The notes beneath the pieces are model-generated. The model ran no database searches. It saw nothing but the letters and a program-made list of their open reading frames with translations, and was not told the origin of the DNA. DNA of 64,000 nucleotides from the NCBI GenBank assembly GCA_025266875.1, contig JALLLT010000055.1:124001-188000 (forward strand). The letters run 5' to 3'. Position 1 is the first letter of the stretch. Every line of letters begins with the position of its first letter. Positions 24,588 to 64,000 of this stretch are shown here, one piece after another. A program made the position numbers and the translations under genes. The stretch is from Fennellomyces sp. T-0311. Lineage: Eukaryota; Mucoromycota; Mucoromycetes; Mucorales; Lichtheimiaceae.

Positions 24588-24777
24588 TTACTCCTCTTCT
24601 GGAGGGTTGCAGATTACGCACTTCACCCAGTTGATACCATGCCCACATTTGTTTAATTTAGGATCCTTGTCCCTCATTCGCAGGAAGCGATGTGTTCGAC
24701 AAATTCTAGTAACGTTTTTGTTTTGAAATGTTAATAATAGAGAAGGAATATCATACTTGGACGATTACTTACTGCAT
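24588..24777 (-). CDS. Tiny spliced protein with C-x-H-G-x5-C-x2-C-N-P motif, copy 1 (40 aa)
   Basis: Two coding exons: a 5-nt first exon (24773-24777, ATGCA) and exon 2 (24588-24705), separated by a 67-nt intron with GTAAGT donor, a TATTAAC branch point and CTAG acceptor. The protein begins MQICRTHRFLRMRDKD and contains KCGHGINWVKCVICNP, ending PEEE. Cys22, His24, Cys31 and Cys34 could hold one zinc ion (inference). A TATAAAAG box lies 51 bp before the ATG. It is too short for usual gene callers. It is homologous to the two other copies at 26024-26184 and 26630-26857, and its promoter and leader align with copy 2. I do not know a named family; function unknown. Confidence 0.75.
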
Positions 24778-24827
24778 TGTTTAAACTGTGAAAGAGTAAT
24801 AAAGCAAACAATAGAGAAGCGACTGAG

Positions 24828-24835
24828 CTTTTATA
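24828..24835 (-). promoter_or_regulatory. TATA box of tiny gene copy 1
   Basis: Minus strand reads GGTATAAAAGCTCAG. It lies 51 bp upstream of the ATG at 24777, nearly the same distance as in copy 2. Confidence 0.6.
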
Positions 24836-26023
24836 CCGATTGCAAAGTCGTCAATGAGCATATCCTTTATTATGAGAGGATGACATTTGTTTATGTATTT
24901 TGAGACACTTTGTACAATGCGTAATATATCCCTACGTAAGTGACAACGGGATCAATGGGGCTAACCATTAGGTCCGTACTTACTGTACATATTCGCATCA
25001 GACAGTCCCGTGCTATTCACACTACTTCTATACGTTATTCGCGGTATAGAACGTTAAATCCAACAACTATTATAGCAATCATCATTATAATATAACCTCC
25101 GTATTGTCTTACACAGCGATTCCGAATGTTAATAATACGTATGGCGGTTAATAGATATAATGTCTCAATCGAACATTATGTACCACTAATGCTACAACTC
25201 AGAATCTTCCGGTAATAGGATAGTGCTGTATAGTGGCTACGCGAATCTGATATACCCAGATTCGCAACGCACTTTCAAGTTTTCTATGTAGCATGCTTCT
25301 TAAAGCATTCTATTACTACACTATTAGTAGCAGTAATTCGGCCACTGCTTTGCACAAAGTTCCATTTTCTGCATCAGTCGTTTCGGGTTCTTACAAGAGT
25401 ATGAGTGCTAGGGTATTATTGCCATGCTCATTACGTAATATGCATCTTTACGATAAGCATCACCTTCAACTTTTTTTACAGTAGCAACCATTTGTAGGGT
25501 GCAATATAACAAGCTCACGTAGCACATGACCAAAAGTATCAACTCTCAACGTACTTGATATAACAAATCGTAAATCTATGCAGTCGTTTCATCACCGTCG
25601 GCCTTCATCATGATAACTCTGGGGCGGTTATAGGTACCCCAGCAAAAGTGATGAGTATCAGCGCTCAGTAAGTGACAATGCTTGGTAGAAACTAGGATTG
25701 TTGAGAATACAACAAACACATTCGTATTTAAATGTAGTTTTATTCGCAAGAATGCTAATTATACTCTTTAGTAAATGTACGAGTATAGCCTTTTTGTTTC
25801 CTATAGAGTTGTCAGTCAAATCTAATATATGTTCATGTTGTTTGACATATAGTGTTTGGTAAACCAGAACGTAGTGCTGTTTTATATCACTGTACGCCCA
25901 AAGTTAGTAGTTGATATATCCAGGATAGCAGGATTGTTGCATTTACAGATTGAAATTGAACAATTACAAGCCGTAGTTCCATGTTTAACAAGATGTCAAC
26001 TAAATGGGGTATCGTGCGACGAA
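24836..26023. other. AT-rich region between tiny gene copies 1 and 2
   Basis: About 1.2 kb without a supported gene. Short ATG-plus-GTAAGT arrangements occur on both strands near 24918-24990, but no matching second exon with the C-x-H-G motif follows. I see no transposon remnant. Confidence 0.4.
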
Positions 26024-26184
26024 CTAGGGGTTACAATGTGCACAGTTTACCCAGCTTAAGCCATGGGGACACTTCCAGATACGGTCAACCTTTTGTGGGC
26101 AGTGATATTTTTGGAGAGCAGTGTGGCTATAGTTCAGACAGTACTTAACATAGAGCTTTCTATCTAAAAGACAACTTACGGCAT
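26024..26184 (-). CDS. Tiny spliced protein with C-x-H-G-x5-C-x2-C-N-P motif, copy 2 (35 aa)
   Basis: The architecture is the same as copy 1: a 5-nt first coding exon (26180-26184, ATGCC), a 53-nt intron (GTAAGT...ACTATAG), then exon 2 (26024-26126). The protein begins MPHTALQKYHCPQKVDRI and ends in KCPHGLSWVNCAHCNP, with the stop codon directly after Pro35. The four putative metal ligands are Cys21, His23, Cys30 and Cys33. The region upstream (TATATAAAAGCGCAG, then TATTACTCTCTCACTGC) aligns with copy 1 (TATAAAAGCTCAG, TATTACTCTTTCACAG), which shows common descent by duplication. The YH-x-P-x4-RI segment is shared with copy 3. Function unknown. Confidence 0.75.
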
Positions 26185-26233
26185 CTTTAAGAGCAGTGAG
26201 AGAGTAATATGTCATGTGAATGGAAGAGCTGCG

Positions 26234-26244
26234 CTTTTATATAT
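26234..26244 (-). promoter_or_regulatory. TATA box of tiny gene copy 2
   Basis: Minus strand reads CCAATATATAAAAGCGCAG. It is 50 bp upstream of the ATG at 26184. It is homologous in sequence and position to the box of copy 1. Confidence 0.6.
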
Positions 26245-26567
26245 TGGTTATAAAGCGGTCAGTGAGTGTACTTTTCATTGTTTAACGAATGCGGTTGGGC
26301 TATTGGGTAGGTGTACATTTCTGTTGTCAATGTAACAGAACAATATTCATTATTAGCTAAAGGAATGATTGCATTCTTCTTAAAAGATATAATATCGTGC
26401 ATTAGATTGTTCATAGCAAAACTATATCCAATCTGATTTGATATTGCTCAATGTTGGAGTAATCTTCCGTTATTGTCATACCGTATTACCAAAATAAGTA
26501 TATCAAAGGGGCGAGTGAAAGGGTATCACTCGTTGATGTATGTGATTGTTGACCACTTCGCCATCCC

Positions 26568-26574
26568 TATAAAT
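26568..26574 (+). promoter_or_regulatory. TATA box of tiny gene copy 3
   Basis: CCCTATAAATTACAG lies 56 bp before the ATG at 26630. The interval 26185-26629 is thus a shared divergent promoter region for copies 2 and 3 and holds nothing else I can support. Confidence 0.55.
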
Positions 26575-26629
26575 TACAGAACTTCTATGCAAGGTTATGA
26601 TCCATCTTTCTTCCATTGCTTTAAAAAGA

Positions 26630-26857
26630 ATGTCGTAAGTGGCTTTGAAGGCACATACAACCCTTTCTCTTTAATGACGCTTTGAAAACTATAGTTGCAC
26701 TCTCGACGAAGAATACCACTTCCCGTGCGAAATGAAGCGCATACACTCTCTTGGCTTCACACCTGTCAAATGTCGCCATGGCATGAATTTGAAGATTTGC
26801 CGTCTCTGTAATCCCGAGCTCGCCGTAAGTGAGCGCAATGTGCTAAAGTCACGTTAA
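26630..26857 (+). CDS. Tiny spliced protein with C-x-H-G-x5-C-x2-C-N-P motif, copy 3 (55 or 46 aa)
   Basis: The 5-nt first coding exon (26630-26634, ATGTC) and a 60-nt intron (GTAAGT...CTATAG) are at the same position and phase as in copies 1 and 2. Exon 2 starts at 26695. The protein begins MSCTLDEEYHFPCEMKRI and carries KCRHGMNLKICRLCNP with Cys28, His30, Cys37 and Cys40. Read straight through, it ends at TAA 26855-26857 (55 aa). A second perfect donor GTAAGT follows GAGCTCGCC, and an acceptor CGTAG at 26871-26875 would give a 46-aa form ending NPELAAA with stop 26882-26884. That form is closer in length to the sister copies. Which form is made cannot be told from sequence. Transcribed divergently from copy 2. 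Confidence 0.72.
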
Positions 26858-26884
26858 AGATGCTATGACCCGTAGGCGGCATAA

Positions 26885-51900: not shown

Positions 51901-53830
51901 AATGAAATTGGGATAATCACAGTATTGAAGAAGTAAGAGTAACTTGAAGCACACAAAAAGAGCAAACAAGACAAGTGCAAGAATGATAAAATGGCCCACG
52001 TACTCGATTTCTAATATGCACCGGAACGCAAGAAAAAATGGTACAACCTGAAAACTGGCGCTTAGGAGCCTATGAACTGCTAATATGTAGTCAGTAATAA
52101 ACTTATCACTACTCAGGACATATATTTAAGCTTCCAGTATATGTAATATAGCCAATAGTCATGTATATAAAGGTAATGCGTATACATTTACTGATAATAT
52201 CACTGCGATTTTGATGAATGAGGGTCGATATGCTAGTAGTACGTAACAGAGAAAACATATAACACCAATTATAGCGGAATCATCAGATTATCAGCAAAAA
52301 CTATGTAGTTATCAGTATACGTATGTTACTCGTTTAATGGACAAATCAAAGAATACAAACATAAATGCGGCGATCTTGTCGGTTATGAATACCACTTCGG
52401 AGCGCCGATGTTTTTGCATTCCCGATTGCCGTTGACGCCATTGCTAAATATAAGTTGCGGTTTCTTACTAGTTATTTTTAGTAGTTGATGACTACGGTGC
52501 TTGACTAGACAGCCATGGTTACGAACAGATTTCTGTTGTCTCTATAGGAGACAACTCATATATCACTAGGTAATAGTTGCTGAATAACAGCTTTGGATGC
52601 CACTTGTTCATTGAATGAACCGAAGCCTTAGAGTAATGTCAATGCTGTGAATAAGGAAACAACAAAGGCGATCGACCAAATGTAAAAGAAAAAAAGAACT
52701 GGCGGAATTAAAGTTGACCAAAGGATGAAGGTGTAAATCTTAAAGTTCTGTGGCGTTTTTTCGACCCATATAGGCTGATAAACTAATATATCAGAATGGT
52801 TATCCAAACATAATGAAAAGCTGAAAGCGAGCATCGACTCCTCAAAGCTCAACTCGGAGTATTAACGCAGTGAAGCATGCGTGATCGGCCACAGTATCAT
52901 CACGTTTTCACGCCCTCAGGCTTGCGTGAACGAAAAGTACGTACAGGCAGTTATGAAGGTCTTTCGCTGCATATCCAAATAACGTGATAGTAACGCCATG
53001 TTCGTTTCTCGTATTTGCTTCATCTGCCTTTCCCAGCTCATGCGTCTGAATTAACACACCGTGTTATCGACATCTAGTACTGTCGCGACGCAACATAAAC
53101 AAGGAGTATTTTACCACGACTGAGGCCTTTGGGCACATTCCTACTTAGCATAAGTAACTGATATTACTACCCTGCGACGGGGTAGTATTAAAACTTGCTG
53201 CCTTGATTGATTGTACTTTCGAACTTGAAAAAAATTAATAAAGTTGTCTAACAAATTTTACCATATCAGCACTATCTAAAAACTGCATGATTTGGATTAA
53301 GTGTTCAGCTTGGGTCACTAGAGAAATCAGTTCTGCTTCGCCATGTGTTCTAGTCCGCCATCGTAGTGCTCATAGAGATATATTCTTAAACAAGTCGTGC
53401 TAAGGCAGTGCTATGATACTTGAAACAAGGCATGTCCATGGTATCATCATAGTAATATATTGAAAGGATATATTTAGCCTAAAATTCCAGTTTCCATGGA
53501 AGGAGGACCTCGGCTATGAATATCGATCATGCTGATACCGTCTGCCATAAGCGGACCAGCTGATCCCGGGCAAACTACATATGGTATCACGGCAATAGTT
53601 TAGACAGGGGGAGTATAGATTAAAACGCGTACTTTCGGTAAGCACGTTGAGGGTCCTCCCTGACAATGGGCCCGATCGAGTAATAATAAAGGAGCGGACC
53701 GCAGGAATTCCAATTGTCGGACGATGCTGTTGCTTGTACGACCCGGGCGCAGTGTTACTGTTGAGTCGTACCTTTTTTAACCTTTTCCACTCTGGTTGAA
53801 CGGAACTTCCCTAGTTAATGTTCTACAAAG
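48968..53830. other. Long AT-rich gene-poor region
   Basis: 4.9 kb. The longest ORFs are 49300-49755 (minus; no family, poor start) and 52628-52852 (minus; 74 codons with two hydrophobic stretches, WSTLIPPVLFFFYIWSIAFV and neighbours). Neither has splice or homology support. A purine-rich tract is listed separately. No transposase, reverse transcriptase, tRNA or terminal repeats are seen. Confidence 0.4.
51851..51913. repeat. Purine-rich low-complexity tract
   Basis: The plus strand is almost all A and G with interspersed T, as degenerate AAAATAA/GAATGA units over about 60 bases. It could be a decayed minisatellite. Confidence 0.5.
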
Positions 53831-56800
53831 ATGGCTGAAGTTCCCACCATCTCCGTTACGAATCCAGACATGGAGAGTCAAGAACTCAACATGAGAAGCC
53901 CTATCACTGCGTCACCACCCGGATCGCCTACTGTTTTTGACGTTGTGAAGAACATGGAAGCGTTAGACAGAGATGATATGTACGAAAGCGACCCGACCAC
54001 GAGCGATGAACCGGAAGCACCAGCACCCGAAGAGGAACCAGAATCAACTGAAGAACCCACCGTACCTGAACCTCAGCAACAACAGCCAAAGGAATCCGAG
54101 GACGATCAGCAAGATCAGCAACAAGATTCACCAAGCATTCGAGAATTCTATCGCAACAAAGCTGTTCTTCTCACCGGCGCCACAGGCTTTATCGGCAAGG
54201 CGCTTTTGTGGAAATTGCTTACACTCAATGTGCAAAAGATCTTTGTTTTGTTGCGTACGGTTCAGCGTCGACCCGGCGCAGCGTTTGAACGTATCAAGGA
54301 AGATATATTAACCAACAAGGTACGCCGTGGAGCGATCAGAAAGCAGGAGTGCTGGTCGATAACTCATAAGACGATCGCATGATAGGCATTCGTGGCGTTG
54401 CGCCGATCCATGGGACCAACACTTTTCGACAGAATGATCAAAGAAAAAGTATGCGCGATCCAGGGCGATTTAGCTCTGCCGGGCCTTGGTCTATCAGACG
54501 AGGATCGCAAGACGGTGGTAAAGGAGTGCAATGTTATTTTGCATTGTGCTGCAACCGTCGATGGAAATGAACGGCTTGATATGGCTGTTAAAGTAGGTAT
54601 CGTTGAACGGAGGCCAGCAAGGAGGTTTGAGCGGTATTAACGAGATGGCAACATTCCAGGTCAACGTACTGGGAACGCTCGATCTCCTCGAACTGGCGAA
54701 TGAATGTATGACGCTATCTGCATTTGTTCATCTGTCGCCGTTGCAGTCTGCCGCTGGATCTGGAGCTGAGGACCGGCTCCTTCCTATCCCGGGTGAAGAT
54801 CCAGAAGCCATCCTTTCATCTATTCTGTCTTCCAGTCTCGAAGGTAACGAATTCACATAGATCCGCTGCCAGGCTACTAATTCTGCCGCAGATCTTCCCA
54901 ACCTTTTCGACGAATATAAGCGAAACTACCCCGACAGCTATTTACTGTCCAAGTCCTTGGCCGAACACATGATCGTCAGCGCTGTTGAAAGAAAGCGGAC
55001 AAACGGCAGCTTCCAATATCCACTCGCCATCATGCGAAGCAGTCCCGTCGGCCCAAGTGCGAGCGAACCCTTGGTTGGATGGGTACGTTTTAAAAAAAGA
55101 TATGATTTTATACCGCACGTTGATCTGACCACCTGTACAGGCCGATGGTGTGAATGGCGCGAACGGCACGTTGCTTCTGACGGGACGAGGCGTACGAGTT
55201 ATCCAGCCTGGAAGTGGGAATGCAAATGCGGATATTGTGCCTGTAGACTTTGCTGTGCGGATGATTCTTGGCTGCGCTGCTACGATCACCCAGCCATCCA
55301 CCGACTTTGATTCACCGATTCCGGATGTGGATGCATTTAACGAGCAGCGCAGCAGTACTCCAACGCCGTCCACTTCCACATCACCGACAGCAGCCACCGG
55401 CCCTGCTATAAGGGACTCCGGTTCATCAACCGAGGAACAGTCTTCAGCGTATCATTCATCGATGGAAAGCCGTCCCTCCTCAAAAACATCCGTACGCGTC
55501 AGTACATTGGGCCCTATGGGCTCTACGTTCCCTTACATGTACCATATCACCACCGCTAACCTTCGATGTTTGCCATGGCGAATCGCGTATGAGTCCATCC
55601 GACAATACTGGACAAAGGCCACCAAGGTCACCTTACCGCCGAGCAGCTACTACTTCACATCCGGGGCCGGTGGTCTGAACCGTGCACGTACCGTCATGAA
55701 CTCCATCCGATCCTATATGGGCAACAGCAACAGCTCAGTGACATCTTCACCCGCAGCAGATCGAGCCAACAAGAAGCGGAATTCACAGCAGCGGTTAAGC
55801 AGACAAATCGACAAGGCAACCAAGTTGTCGTTCACCATGAAAACGTTCTACAGACCAGCAACGAGTACCGTGGATTCTAATTCCATGGGCTTGCGTCGCC
55901 ATCTGCAATCGACCGAGTTGGACCCGTATGCGCTTGTACCGGAAGACGCAGATCACGGTTTCTGGATGAACTATTTCTTAAACGCAAGTTACGGGATCCA
56001 TTACTTTATCTGTATGGAACCCGATCTGCGACTTCCGGTACCACTTTCCGGATGGAGCTGTGCACTGCAATCATATGACTATACTCAAGGAAATGACAGC
56101 GTCCGATTGATTGATCGACCTGCTCAGAGTGCCATGTTTACGGCTGATCAAATTGACCGTCGTCTTGGCCGTATGGTGGCACAAATCAAGAGCACACTCG
56201 AAAGCACTTCGCCAACAAGAACAGCCCAGGACGATGAGCGATGGCTGGGCGATATGGATGATACTTTGGATGACTGGTGCCAAGACGGTGCCGTGTTCAA
56301 TTCGGATAAAGAAGTTCGAATGGTTTTGGGTAAATGGCGCAAAAAGATCGGCAACAACGATGACCGCGTCAAGATCGTCGTCTTGAACGACAAGCGCGTC
56401 AATCAAGCCATCAACCAGGTTGGTGCTAATGCTGGCGTATGACGTGCATGTTCTTACAGAGTGATCACAGATTACACTAAACGCCGGTGTGCAAAAGCAA
56501 ACTGCAGCGAACGAGGCCATGGTATGACGATGCCATCATTTCCGGTAACAGTACGACTTAACGGTTCTTTTGCTCTAGAAAATCCTTGTGCGCATGAGTG
56601 AACGTACGCAGTTACAGTTCGTTTGGTTCGCAAGCTACTTCCTGAAGCGCCTTTTCGATGACATGTTTGACAATGTCCGCATACAGGAAGAAAGCATTCG
56701 ACGCGTAAGTTACCGCGTGAAGGCACCGAAAAACAAAGGCTGATTGTTCTGACAGATTCGTGCAGCCACGCTGGGTAAACGAGTGGTGTATGTCCCGGTG

Positions 56801-59306
56801 ACAAAGAGTGTTTTGGACCCGCTTTTGGTTTGGTACATTGCTATCCGGTACCATCTTCCGGTGCCTGCATTTGCCTGTGACGAAGGTATGCTGGGCTCTT
56901 GCATTAGATGTGAACATAGGGTCGCTGACGCTTTGCATCATGCAATAGGGCTTGGTCAACTCGGCCCACTCTCCGATATCTACCGCCTTTCGGGCGCCTA
57001 CTATGTTAAGCGAGACAAGCAGAAGCGCTCCCCACTGAATACTGCGGTGATGGCAGCCTACACCCAGGTGCTCTTGCGAGAGCACGGCGCGCTGTCACTG
57101 TGTATGGAAAAGTCTCGAAGTCGGACAGGCAAGTACCAAGAACCATACGATGACGGACTTATCGATATGGTCGTCGAGTCCACGTTGCAGTCGAATCAGC
57201 CCCGTTCGCCTGCAGTGTCACGTGTCGCTAGTCTGGAAAGCAACAACAACAGCCCACCTGCATCGCCCGATACACCCAGCTCCATAGGCAGCCCTACCAT
57301 GAGCATCGACAGCACCACCGGAACTCCTCGCAAAGTACACAAGGATGTCTTCTTCGTTCCAATCAACATCACATATGAGAATATGCCCGAGCTATCGTTC
57401 CTTCTCGAAGCTTTGCTCGATCAGCATCAGCCGGCAAACAAGCAATCAAGCATGTCGCCGCCACCCACACAAGGCTTGATGCGTCCTAGCGAAGCCAAGG
57501 ATAGGCGCAGCAAGGTTTTGGAAGGCGCCGATGCACAGAGAAAGTTTGGGCGTGTGCTGCTGGGCATTGGTCCGCTTGTGAGCGTGCAAGATGCGGCAGA
57601 TGACCTGAACCGTTCGAGCGGGTAAGCAGATGCTCTTAACGAGAAAGGCGTTATATTGATACCTGGTGGGTTTTTGCATGATATAGTGGGGCCATTAACG
57701 AAAGCGACGAAGAAGCACTTGTAAAGAAGATCACCAAGCAAATTCAAACAAACCAGCGCAAGGCACTGATTGTATCACCCGTGTCACTCGTGGCCAGCAT
57801 TGTTCTCTATGGGCGAGCGACGGGCGGCGTGTGCTTCGGTAATGCACGGCATTTATGGAAGGTGTACGTATGACTAAGGCTTGCAAAACAACAATAGGAA
57901 AAATGAAAGACATGGCAGAGTGGCTGCGTGCCGAGGTGATCATGCGAGAGTTCCAGATTGACTGGCAAGGTGAGATCGAATGAGTACGGTGCTAAATCGT
58001 GAGCTGACAATAGGCAAAATAAACAGAGGGCGAGGATGTGGATGCAGTTGTACTGTACGCTTTCCACCTACTGGACGAAACTAAAAACATCATCATCGAA
58101 GGCAAAGAGATCATGGACGATACAAATGTTCGCGTGAACGACCATGCTGATAACGTCATGACGCTGTCGTATTATGCCAATCAGGTAACTAAGCGTCGGT
58201 GTTTGGAATCATGCCTATGTTGACCATTCCACAGGCAATCGATGTGTTCCTGTTGGACGCATTCTTTGCGGTGGTGTATCTCTCGTTCACCGAGGCGAAG
58301 GTGACGGAGGACGAGTTCATGGATCGGTTCCGTTTCCTTGCCCAGATGTTAGAGCGCGAGTTTGTCCTAACGTGGGATATCGACAAGGAGTTCAATGCTG
58401 TGCTTAGCACATACGAAAGTCGCAAGGTGATACGACGGTGTATAACCGATGATGGCCAGCCAAGCTCTCAACTGCTCCTTGCGGCCAATATGGAAAGCAA
58501 TCCTGTGCGATATGAGCAATTGATATTTCTGGCCTCCTTATTATACCCGACCATCGACTCGTACTGGATCACATCATGCTCGCTCTCAGCACTCGAAGCG
58601 GTGCCCATGTTACCCCGCAGCATTGTGCCGCTTCTGTCGCAATGGATTGCCACGCATCTGATCACCGGACGCCGCACCATCTACCGCGAGGTCCTCTCCA
58701 CCGAGTCGAGCCGAACAGCCGCGGATGTGTTTATGACGTTAGGTTTCCTGACCGAAGTGCAGGCCAAGGAGAAGCTTTCACCCGATGCTCAAATTCTGCT
58801 GCATGAACTTGGTATTCCCACGACCGAGATGCTGATCCAGCTCTCGGGACAGAGCAACGAAGCTCCCCAAGAGATGGTTTCGCCGGTGGATCCCGAAGGA
58901 ATGATGGTAAGGAGCATACAGATGAGAAGAAGCAGACGATATGCTGAGTGATTGCGAACTATAGAAAGCGCTGATGGCGCAGATACAAATGAACCGAGCC
59001 AACTCCAATATGGCGGACCTGTGCCAGCAAATCGACACATACCGTTTGGGGTCGGTATCGCAACGAGAAACGTTCCAGAATAAGCAGGTGTTCCAGAAGT
59101 GCCTCAAGCAGATCAAGGGCATCCTCCAGGCAAGCACGGCCGGGTTTGCAAAGAAGCGCCAGGTGGAGCTGCCGGAGAACGAGGAAAAGCTCGTGCAACT
59201 TGTGTATGCGCTCCGCACGAGCAGTGCACCGAGCCTCGATCGATCGTCGTCCCAGCAGGGGCGTGCGTTGCGTAGAATCTCGGAGGCTTACAACTTACGG
59301 CACTAG
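53831..59306 (+). CDS. Fatty acyl-CoA reductase fused to PlsB/GNPAT-type acyltransferase
   Basis: Fourteen exons give 1,574 residues with canonical borders. After an acidic Pro/Gln-rich head, a fatty acyl-CoA reductase domain starts: Rossmann motif LLTGATGFIGKALLWKL (about 112-128), NVLGTLDLLELANE, active-site YLLSK (Tyr310, Lys314), and the reductase hallmark EPLVGWADG and IVPVDFAVRMILG. A Ser-rich linker and a helical region follow. The acyltransferase half has motif I VPVTKSVLDPLLVWY (Thr858, Asp863), motif II YRLSGAYYVKRD, motif III MEKSRSRTG (Glu939) and motif IV FFVPINITYENMP, then a PlsB-like C-terminal tail. Motif I lacks the catalytic His of HX4D and motif III has Lys for the first Gly. 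The reductase looks active; acyltransferase activity is doubtful. Such a pair fits ether-lipid synthesis (fatty alcohol plus acyl-DHAP). The C-terminus (AYNLRH) is not a PTS1. Confidence 0.88.
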
Positions 59307-63160: not shown

Positions 63161-64000
63161 TTAGAGAAGACCAACGTTCCGCAGACTATCGTGGAGACAA
63201 ATGTCGTTAACTGCGGACATGACAAACTTGATTTGCTTTGTATCGGTTGCACAGGTAAAATGGGTATATATCTGCTTGGTCTCGGCAAGTGTGTTGAGCG
63301 ACACAAATCGATTAAGCAAATATTCGCAAGCGGCTTCGTACTTGTTACCACCCATATAGTCAGCGAAGTATTTTGATAATGGATTTCGTGGCAGCTTCTC
63401 TGCAAGCAAATCAATTTTGTTCAAGAACAGGATAATTGATGTCTTTGTGAACCATTTGGAGTTGCAGATGGAATCGAACAGCGTCAATGACTCTTGCAGA
63501 CGGTTGATGGATGAATCTTCAACTAGTACTTGATCATATTCGGATACAGCCACGAGGAATACAATTGCTGTAACGTTTTCGAAACAATGAATCCACTTCT
63601 TGCGCTCAGATCGTTGGCCGCCCACATCGAACATGCGATAGGTCATTTGACCAATAACAAATGTAGTTTCGGTAATACCCGTCGTCTTCACTCGAGATCG
63701 CAAGACGTCTTGATCACTTGGCATATAATTGGGGTGGCCGATGCGTACGATCGAATCAAAGTAACTAATGAATTCATTTAACACTTTATCTCATGCGTAA
63801 CGTGAAAAAAGTAACTTACTATCGTGCGGAATCATTCAGCTGGTATTCGTTGGACCGTCGGACACATTCACGCACACCTTGGTCTTCCCACAAAGAAGCA
63901 AGTGCTTCGACTAGTTCATGGCTCATCATTTCGATCTGAGGAGGTGCTTCCAAAATCATCTGTCGATGGACATCGTTGTGCGAATTTTGGAACGGGATGT
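63161..64000 (-). CDS. Heterotrimeric G-protein alpha subunit (5' part missing)
   Basis: Signal-transducing GTPase at the plasma membrane. The last two-thirds are visible; the myristoylated start and P-loop lie beyond 64000. The upstream exon (IPFQNSHNDVHRQMILEAPP, ECVRRSNEYQLNDSA) joins through an intron at 63775-63830 to YYFDSIVRIGHPNYMPSDQD. Switch I is RSRVKTTGITE with the Arg that cholera toxin can modify; switch II is FDVGGQRSERKKWIHCF. NKID and TCATDT bind guanine. The C-terminus is HDSLRNVGLL; it has Val at -4 instead of Cys, so no pertussis-toxin site, which fits the fungal class with non-Cys ends. The 3' end converges with the YEATS2-like gene. Confidence 0.93.

Follow-up and report, generated by a model that had tools for sequence, protein, structure and literature searches.

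Do the three very short spliced reading frames clustered at positions 24588–26884 of a 64,000-nucleotide (nt) stretch of the Fennellomyces sp. T-0311 genome (contig JALLLT010000055.1, positions 124,001–188,000; the whole stretch is called the window here) represent real genes, and what could their products do? An earlier note on this DNA had described them as three tiny paralogous genes sharing the motif C-x-H-G-x5-C-x2-C-N-P and had suggested that each product binds one zinc ion. Our analysis indicates that the three copies are very probably real genes and that, if they are, a zinc site in their products is likely. For the combined reading on sequence grounds, i.e., real genes that bind zinc, with their role left loose, we estimate a probability of about 0.5. 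No relatives of the three sister genes were found in the searches made.

A six-frame scan of the window showed exactly three matches to the motif, two on the minus and one on the plus strand, located as the earlier note had placed them (Table 1). The residue directly before the motif was K in all three copies, extending it to K-C-x-H-G-x5-C-x2-C-N-P. No fourth match was found on either strand of 258,000 of the 266,031 bases of the contig, window included, and neither the reversed motif nor any of seven other HG-to-C spacings (3, 4, 6, 7, 8, 9, and 10) gave a match in the real contig. The strict motif was also absent from 40 simulated first-order sequences of 258 kb (10.32 Mb in total). The loose form C-x-H-x6-C-x2-C occurred 22 times in the simulated sequences (0.55 per 258 kb) and seven times in the real contig, four of them outside the three genes, which shows that the simulation understates chance for Cys-rich matches; reversed, the loose form gave no match in the real contig. 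Three loose matches beyond the window (at 105068, 231443, and 238002 in contig coordinates), with stop codons near each, exceed the simulation and were taken as Cys-rich noise. Another loose match, CGHDKLDLLCIGC at 63212–63250 (+), is antisense to a G-alpha gene and was taken as chance.

The shortness of the frames and the ease with which the loose form arises, both in the simulation and at the four extra places in the contig, could suggest that the three copies are unrelated chance matches. Against this stand the absence of the strict motif from the simulation, in reverse and at shifted spacings, and the common anatomy and leave-one-out profile matches presented below; chance is already disfavoured and is regarded as extremely improbable. 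The motif controls on real sequence and the structure results left the odds of the readings unchanged.

The gene anatomy shared by the three copies, which was absent from the earlier note, is stronger evidence than the motif. Each copy showed the same layout: a TATA box, a 5-nt coding exon (ATGNN immediately followed by the donor GTAAGT), a predicted phase-2 intron, and the motif exon, in which the motif ends shortly before the stop codon (0, 4, or 13 residues in the gene models given). The splice model was consistent across all copies, in agreement with the three spliced genes proposed earlier. The string ATGNNGTAAG stands upstream of all three motifs and had 11 occurrences, these three included, over 516 kb of strand (about 0.005 expected per 250 nt). 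Combined with a TATA box 45–75 bp upstream, it occurred three times in 258 kb, all at these genes, compared to four times in the 10.32 Mb of simulated sequence (0.1 expected per 258 kb); since this test was framed after the three genes had been seen, its numbers are descriptive. Copies 2 and 3 lie head to head, their ATGs 446 bp apart, and copy 2 is followed on its strand by copy 1. The stretch between the ATGs of copies 2 and 3 (26185–26629) contains one TATA box per direction and is possibly a regulatory stretch common to both.

Table 1. Positions in the window of the motifs and of the predicted gene parts of the three copies.
Feature	Positions	Strand	Basis or detail
Copy 1 motif, KCGHGINWVKCVICNP	24603–24650	−	six-frame scan
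Copy 1 TATA box	24830–24835	−	starts 58 bp before ATG
Copy 1 coding exon 1	24773–24777	−	gene model; ATGCA, 5 nt, then donor GTAAGT
Copy 1 intron	24706–24772	−	predicted; 67 nt, phase 2
Copy 1 exon 2 to stop	24588–24705	−	gene model; 40-residue protein, C-terminus CNPPEEE
Copy 2 motif, KCPHGLSWVNCAHCNP	26027–26074	−	six-frame scan
Copy 2 TATA box	26238–26243	−	starts 59 bp before ATG
Copy 2 coding exon 1	26180–26184	−	gene model; ATGCC, 5 nt, then donor GTAAGT
Copy 2 intron	26127–26179	−	predicted; 53 nt, phase 2
Copy 2 exon 2 to stop	26024–26126	−	gene model; 35-residue protein, C-terminus CNP
Copy 3 motif, KCRHGMNLKICRLCNP	26768–26815	+	six-frame scan
Copy 3 TATA box	26568–26573	+	starts 62 bp before ATG
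Copy 3 coding exon 1	26630–26634	+	gene model; ATGTC, 5 nt, then donor GTAAGT
Copy 3 intron	26635–26694	+	predicted; 60 nt, phase 2
Copy 3 exon 2 to stop	26695–26857	+	gene model; 55-residue protein, or 45 to 66 residues via donor 26825

Copy 3 was found to contain a second strong donor, GTAAGT at 26825–26830 (+), aligned with GTAAAT in copy 1, and these sites possibly reflect a lost or variable second intron. The six acceptors tried with this donor gave copy 3 proteins of 45, 47, 47, 49, 56, or 66 residues, so that the C-terminal end of its model is provisional. The lengths of 40, 35, and 55 residues given in the earlier note agreed with the gene models, but its alternative of 46 residues for copy 3 would require the second donor and was produced by none of these acceptors. 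The same two sites could indicate that the motif exon is internal and that a further exon adds a C-terminal part to longer genes. However, copy 2 has its stop codon directly after CNP, and the six acceptors in copy 3, all at most 130 nt from the donor, add at most 21 residues after ELA; longer genes are considered unlikely.

Profiles built from two copies ranked the left-out third copy as the best non-training match among 8,202 translated segments each time (E values of 0.0043 for copy 3, 2.5e-5 for copy 1, and 6.1e-5 for copy 2). Together with the common anatomy this bears out the earlier proposal of paralogy, and the three genes are, as judged from their sequences, diverged paralogues. The accompanying statement that the copies have diverged outside the motif was mostly correct, except that copies 2 and 3 additionally share YHxPx4RI and that the profiles recover the third copy. 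Local DNA similarity of the copy pairs was compared with 300 shuffles per comparison. Promoter and leader were identical at 43 of 53 positions between copies 1 and 2 (1 of 300 shuffles as good) and at 20 of 25 between copies 1 and 3 (2 of 300), and were no more similar than by chance between copies 2 and 3 (52 of 300). For the pairs 1–2, 1–3, and 2–3, respectively, 37, 6, and 4 of the 300 shuffles were as good for the exon-2 stretch, 199, 70, and 74 for the intron, 81, 166, and 41 for the downstream DNA, and 36, 270, and 15 for the far-upstream DNA, where the coordinates place the 2–3 similarity on both genes' own inverted 5′ parts. Within the 16-codon core, third positions made up 13 of the 25 variable columns (p = 0.04), and six of the eight invariant codons showed silent variation. 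As modest evidence, this points to selection acting on the motif protein, as had been suggested earlier.

Unspliced RNA read from the shared ATG gives Met-x-stop (ATG NNG TAA) in all three copies, so that splicing would gate translation if the spliced proteins are the products. The same three codons could instead belong to a conserved regulatory RNA or to a two-codon upstream frame, with any translation of the motif exon beginning at a different start; promoter and leader rank among the DNA most alike between the copies, and in copy 2 an alternative unspliced frame of 63 residues, starting MTYYSL, is also open from an upstream ATG. Yet the letters after ATGNN constitute a full donor, GTAAGT, and no single alternative start would serve all three copies, since copies 1 and 3 contain no motif-frame start upstream of exon 2 and copy 2 contains no inner ATG between intron and motif. 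Besides, changes at third bases leave the protein motif intact, and the window contained no Rfam match at or above the gathering score of its family. This explanation is regarded as quite improbable, somewhat more so than that of longer genes.

Copies 1 and 3 matched no Pfam family even at an E value of 10, and copy 2 matched only PF23548 (E = 0.031) and PF13719 (E = 3.8), both under the cut-off. NCBIfam, PHROGs, and PDB sequences gave no match at an E value of 10 (part of this search was made with copy 3 alone), in line with the earlier statement that no named family has this layout. A collection of 5.8 billion proteins yielded no candidate, although candidates there need three shared 5-residue words and diverged relatives would escape; family and protein searches are blunt for proteins so short. 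As this collection includes NCBI proteins of Fennellomyces sp. T-0311, the genes seem unannotated, which fits the earlier expectation that gene prediction would miss them. A search of the same genome with seven protein and two DNA queries and two patterns found no fourth copy, at a limited sensitivity with which the natural copies 1 and 2 found each other and not copy 3, and copy 3 found itself alone. Viral and prokaryote contigs contained no relatives.

The cluster lies in an AT-rich, gene-poor island (36–41% G + C over 24.0–28.5 kb vs. 47–57% at 22–24 kb) flanked by a CRAL-TRIO gene and a HET-domain gene. Such surroundings, the lack of relatives in the searches, and the diverged tails and lengths of the copies would suit relic pieces, namely copies, in decay and without function, of the promoter end and a zinc-finger exon from a mobile element or larger gene. 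However, ATG, donor, in-phase acceptor, full motif, and stop codon are kept in all three copies, and the silent variation in the invariant codons likewise argues against decay. Copies 1 and 2, the two searched as DNA, also each had a single occurrence in the genome at that level, and the repeat search detected just two direct and four inverted short pairs (16–24 nt), none of them at the ends of the cluster. Relic pieces are thought to be an unlikely explanation.

We favor three functional, anciently duplicated protein-coding microgenes, whose products would be microproteins of 4–6 kDa with one CHCC zinc site each, made from spliced RNA only. Whole-chain isoelectric points of 8.88, 8.88, and 8.74 show that the predicted chains are basic, and no signal peptide was apparent by eye in any of them. 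In the AlphaFold2 model of copy 3, which contains no ligand, the motif region alone was confident (mean predicted local distance difference test score, pLDDT, of 80 for residues 31–40), and 18 of 54 residues had a pLDDT of 70–90. The Cys, His, Cys, and Cys side chains may hold one zinc ion and thereby fold a C-terminal knuckle of 13 residues, with the basic N-terminal stretch helping to make contact, and the TATA promoter may be inducible. The basic chains, the apparent lack of a signal peptide, and the putative knuckle suggest a small intracellular adaptor or modulator, which might act on protein or nucleic acid; given real genes and a zinc site, we consider the odds of such a role to be even.

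The HET-domain gene (PF06985; 28789–30438, +) is located 1.9 kb beyond copy 3. Its protein had 143 relatives at an E value of 0.001, and the organism-named ones among the 120 listed were from Fennellomyces, Zychaea, Circinella, and Phascolomyces, all Lichtheimiaceae. This Mucorales genome contains at least 145 HET matches, and the motif was absent from the 4-kb flank of one other HET gene, the sole other HET flank read. The link of the microgenes to their HET neighbor is only positional. A more specific proposal, in which orphan, lineage-restricted, splice-gated microproteins with a minimal, free-standing CHCC zinc fold of 13 residues would modulate a larger partner, possibly the HET-domain neighbor, is considered unlikely. 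Elsewhere in the window, the start of the region 53819–58951 (+) resembles by eye the NAD-binding region of fatty-acyl reductases, and a GPAT C-terminal region (PF19277) was found downstream at 58193–58951; the whole may be one reductase-acyltransferase fusion gene.

If the three genes are real, genes of 35–55 codons have been detected through anatomy and not homology and, to judge from the protein collection, are missing from their genome's annotation. They would provide a signature with which early-diverging fungi can be searched for tiny zinc genes (TATA box, about 60 bp, ATGNN followed by GTAAGT, short intron, KCxHGx5CxxCNP), and a case in which to test the dependence of translation on removal of an intron next to the start codon.

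Compared to known zinc motifs, the copies are similar to the retroviral-type CCHC zinc knuckle (C-x2-C-x4-H-x4-C) in being very short segments with, as predicted here, a single zinc, but their spacing is C-x-H-x6-C-x2-C, and no CCHC-knuckle family was matched in Pfam at an E value of 10. The RanBP2-type zinc finger consists of two Cys-Cys knuckles, C-x2-4-C-x10-C-x2-C; its second knuckle, C-x2-C, is also present in the copies, whereas C-x-H takes the place of the first, and the gap spans six and not about ten residues. Metallothioneins are Cys-rich chains with many C-x-C, while C-x-C is absent from the copies, whose 40, 35, and 55 residues include 4, 4, and 5 Cys, respectively. The weak match of Zn_ribbon_FGT1_2 (PF23548) to residues 21–34 of copy 2 scored 14.3 bits against a curated cut-off of 27, and copies 1 and 3 did not match this family. 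Repeat proteins of algae and other organisms contain C-x-H-x6-C-x2-C units; a consensus of this repeat matched no Pfam family at an E value of 0.001. All three copies show the same spacing of the four Cys and His ligands as these repeats, which are arranged in tandem and end in CGG, whereas each fungal copy constitutes a single unit ending in CNP within a tiny gene.
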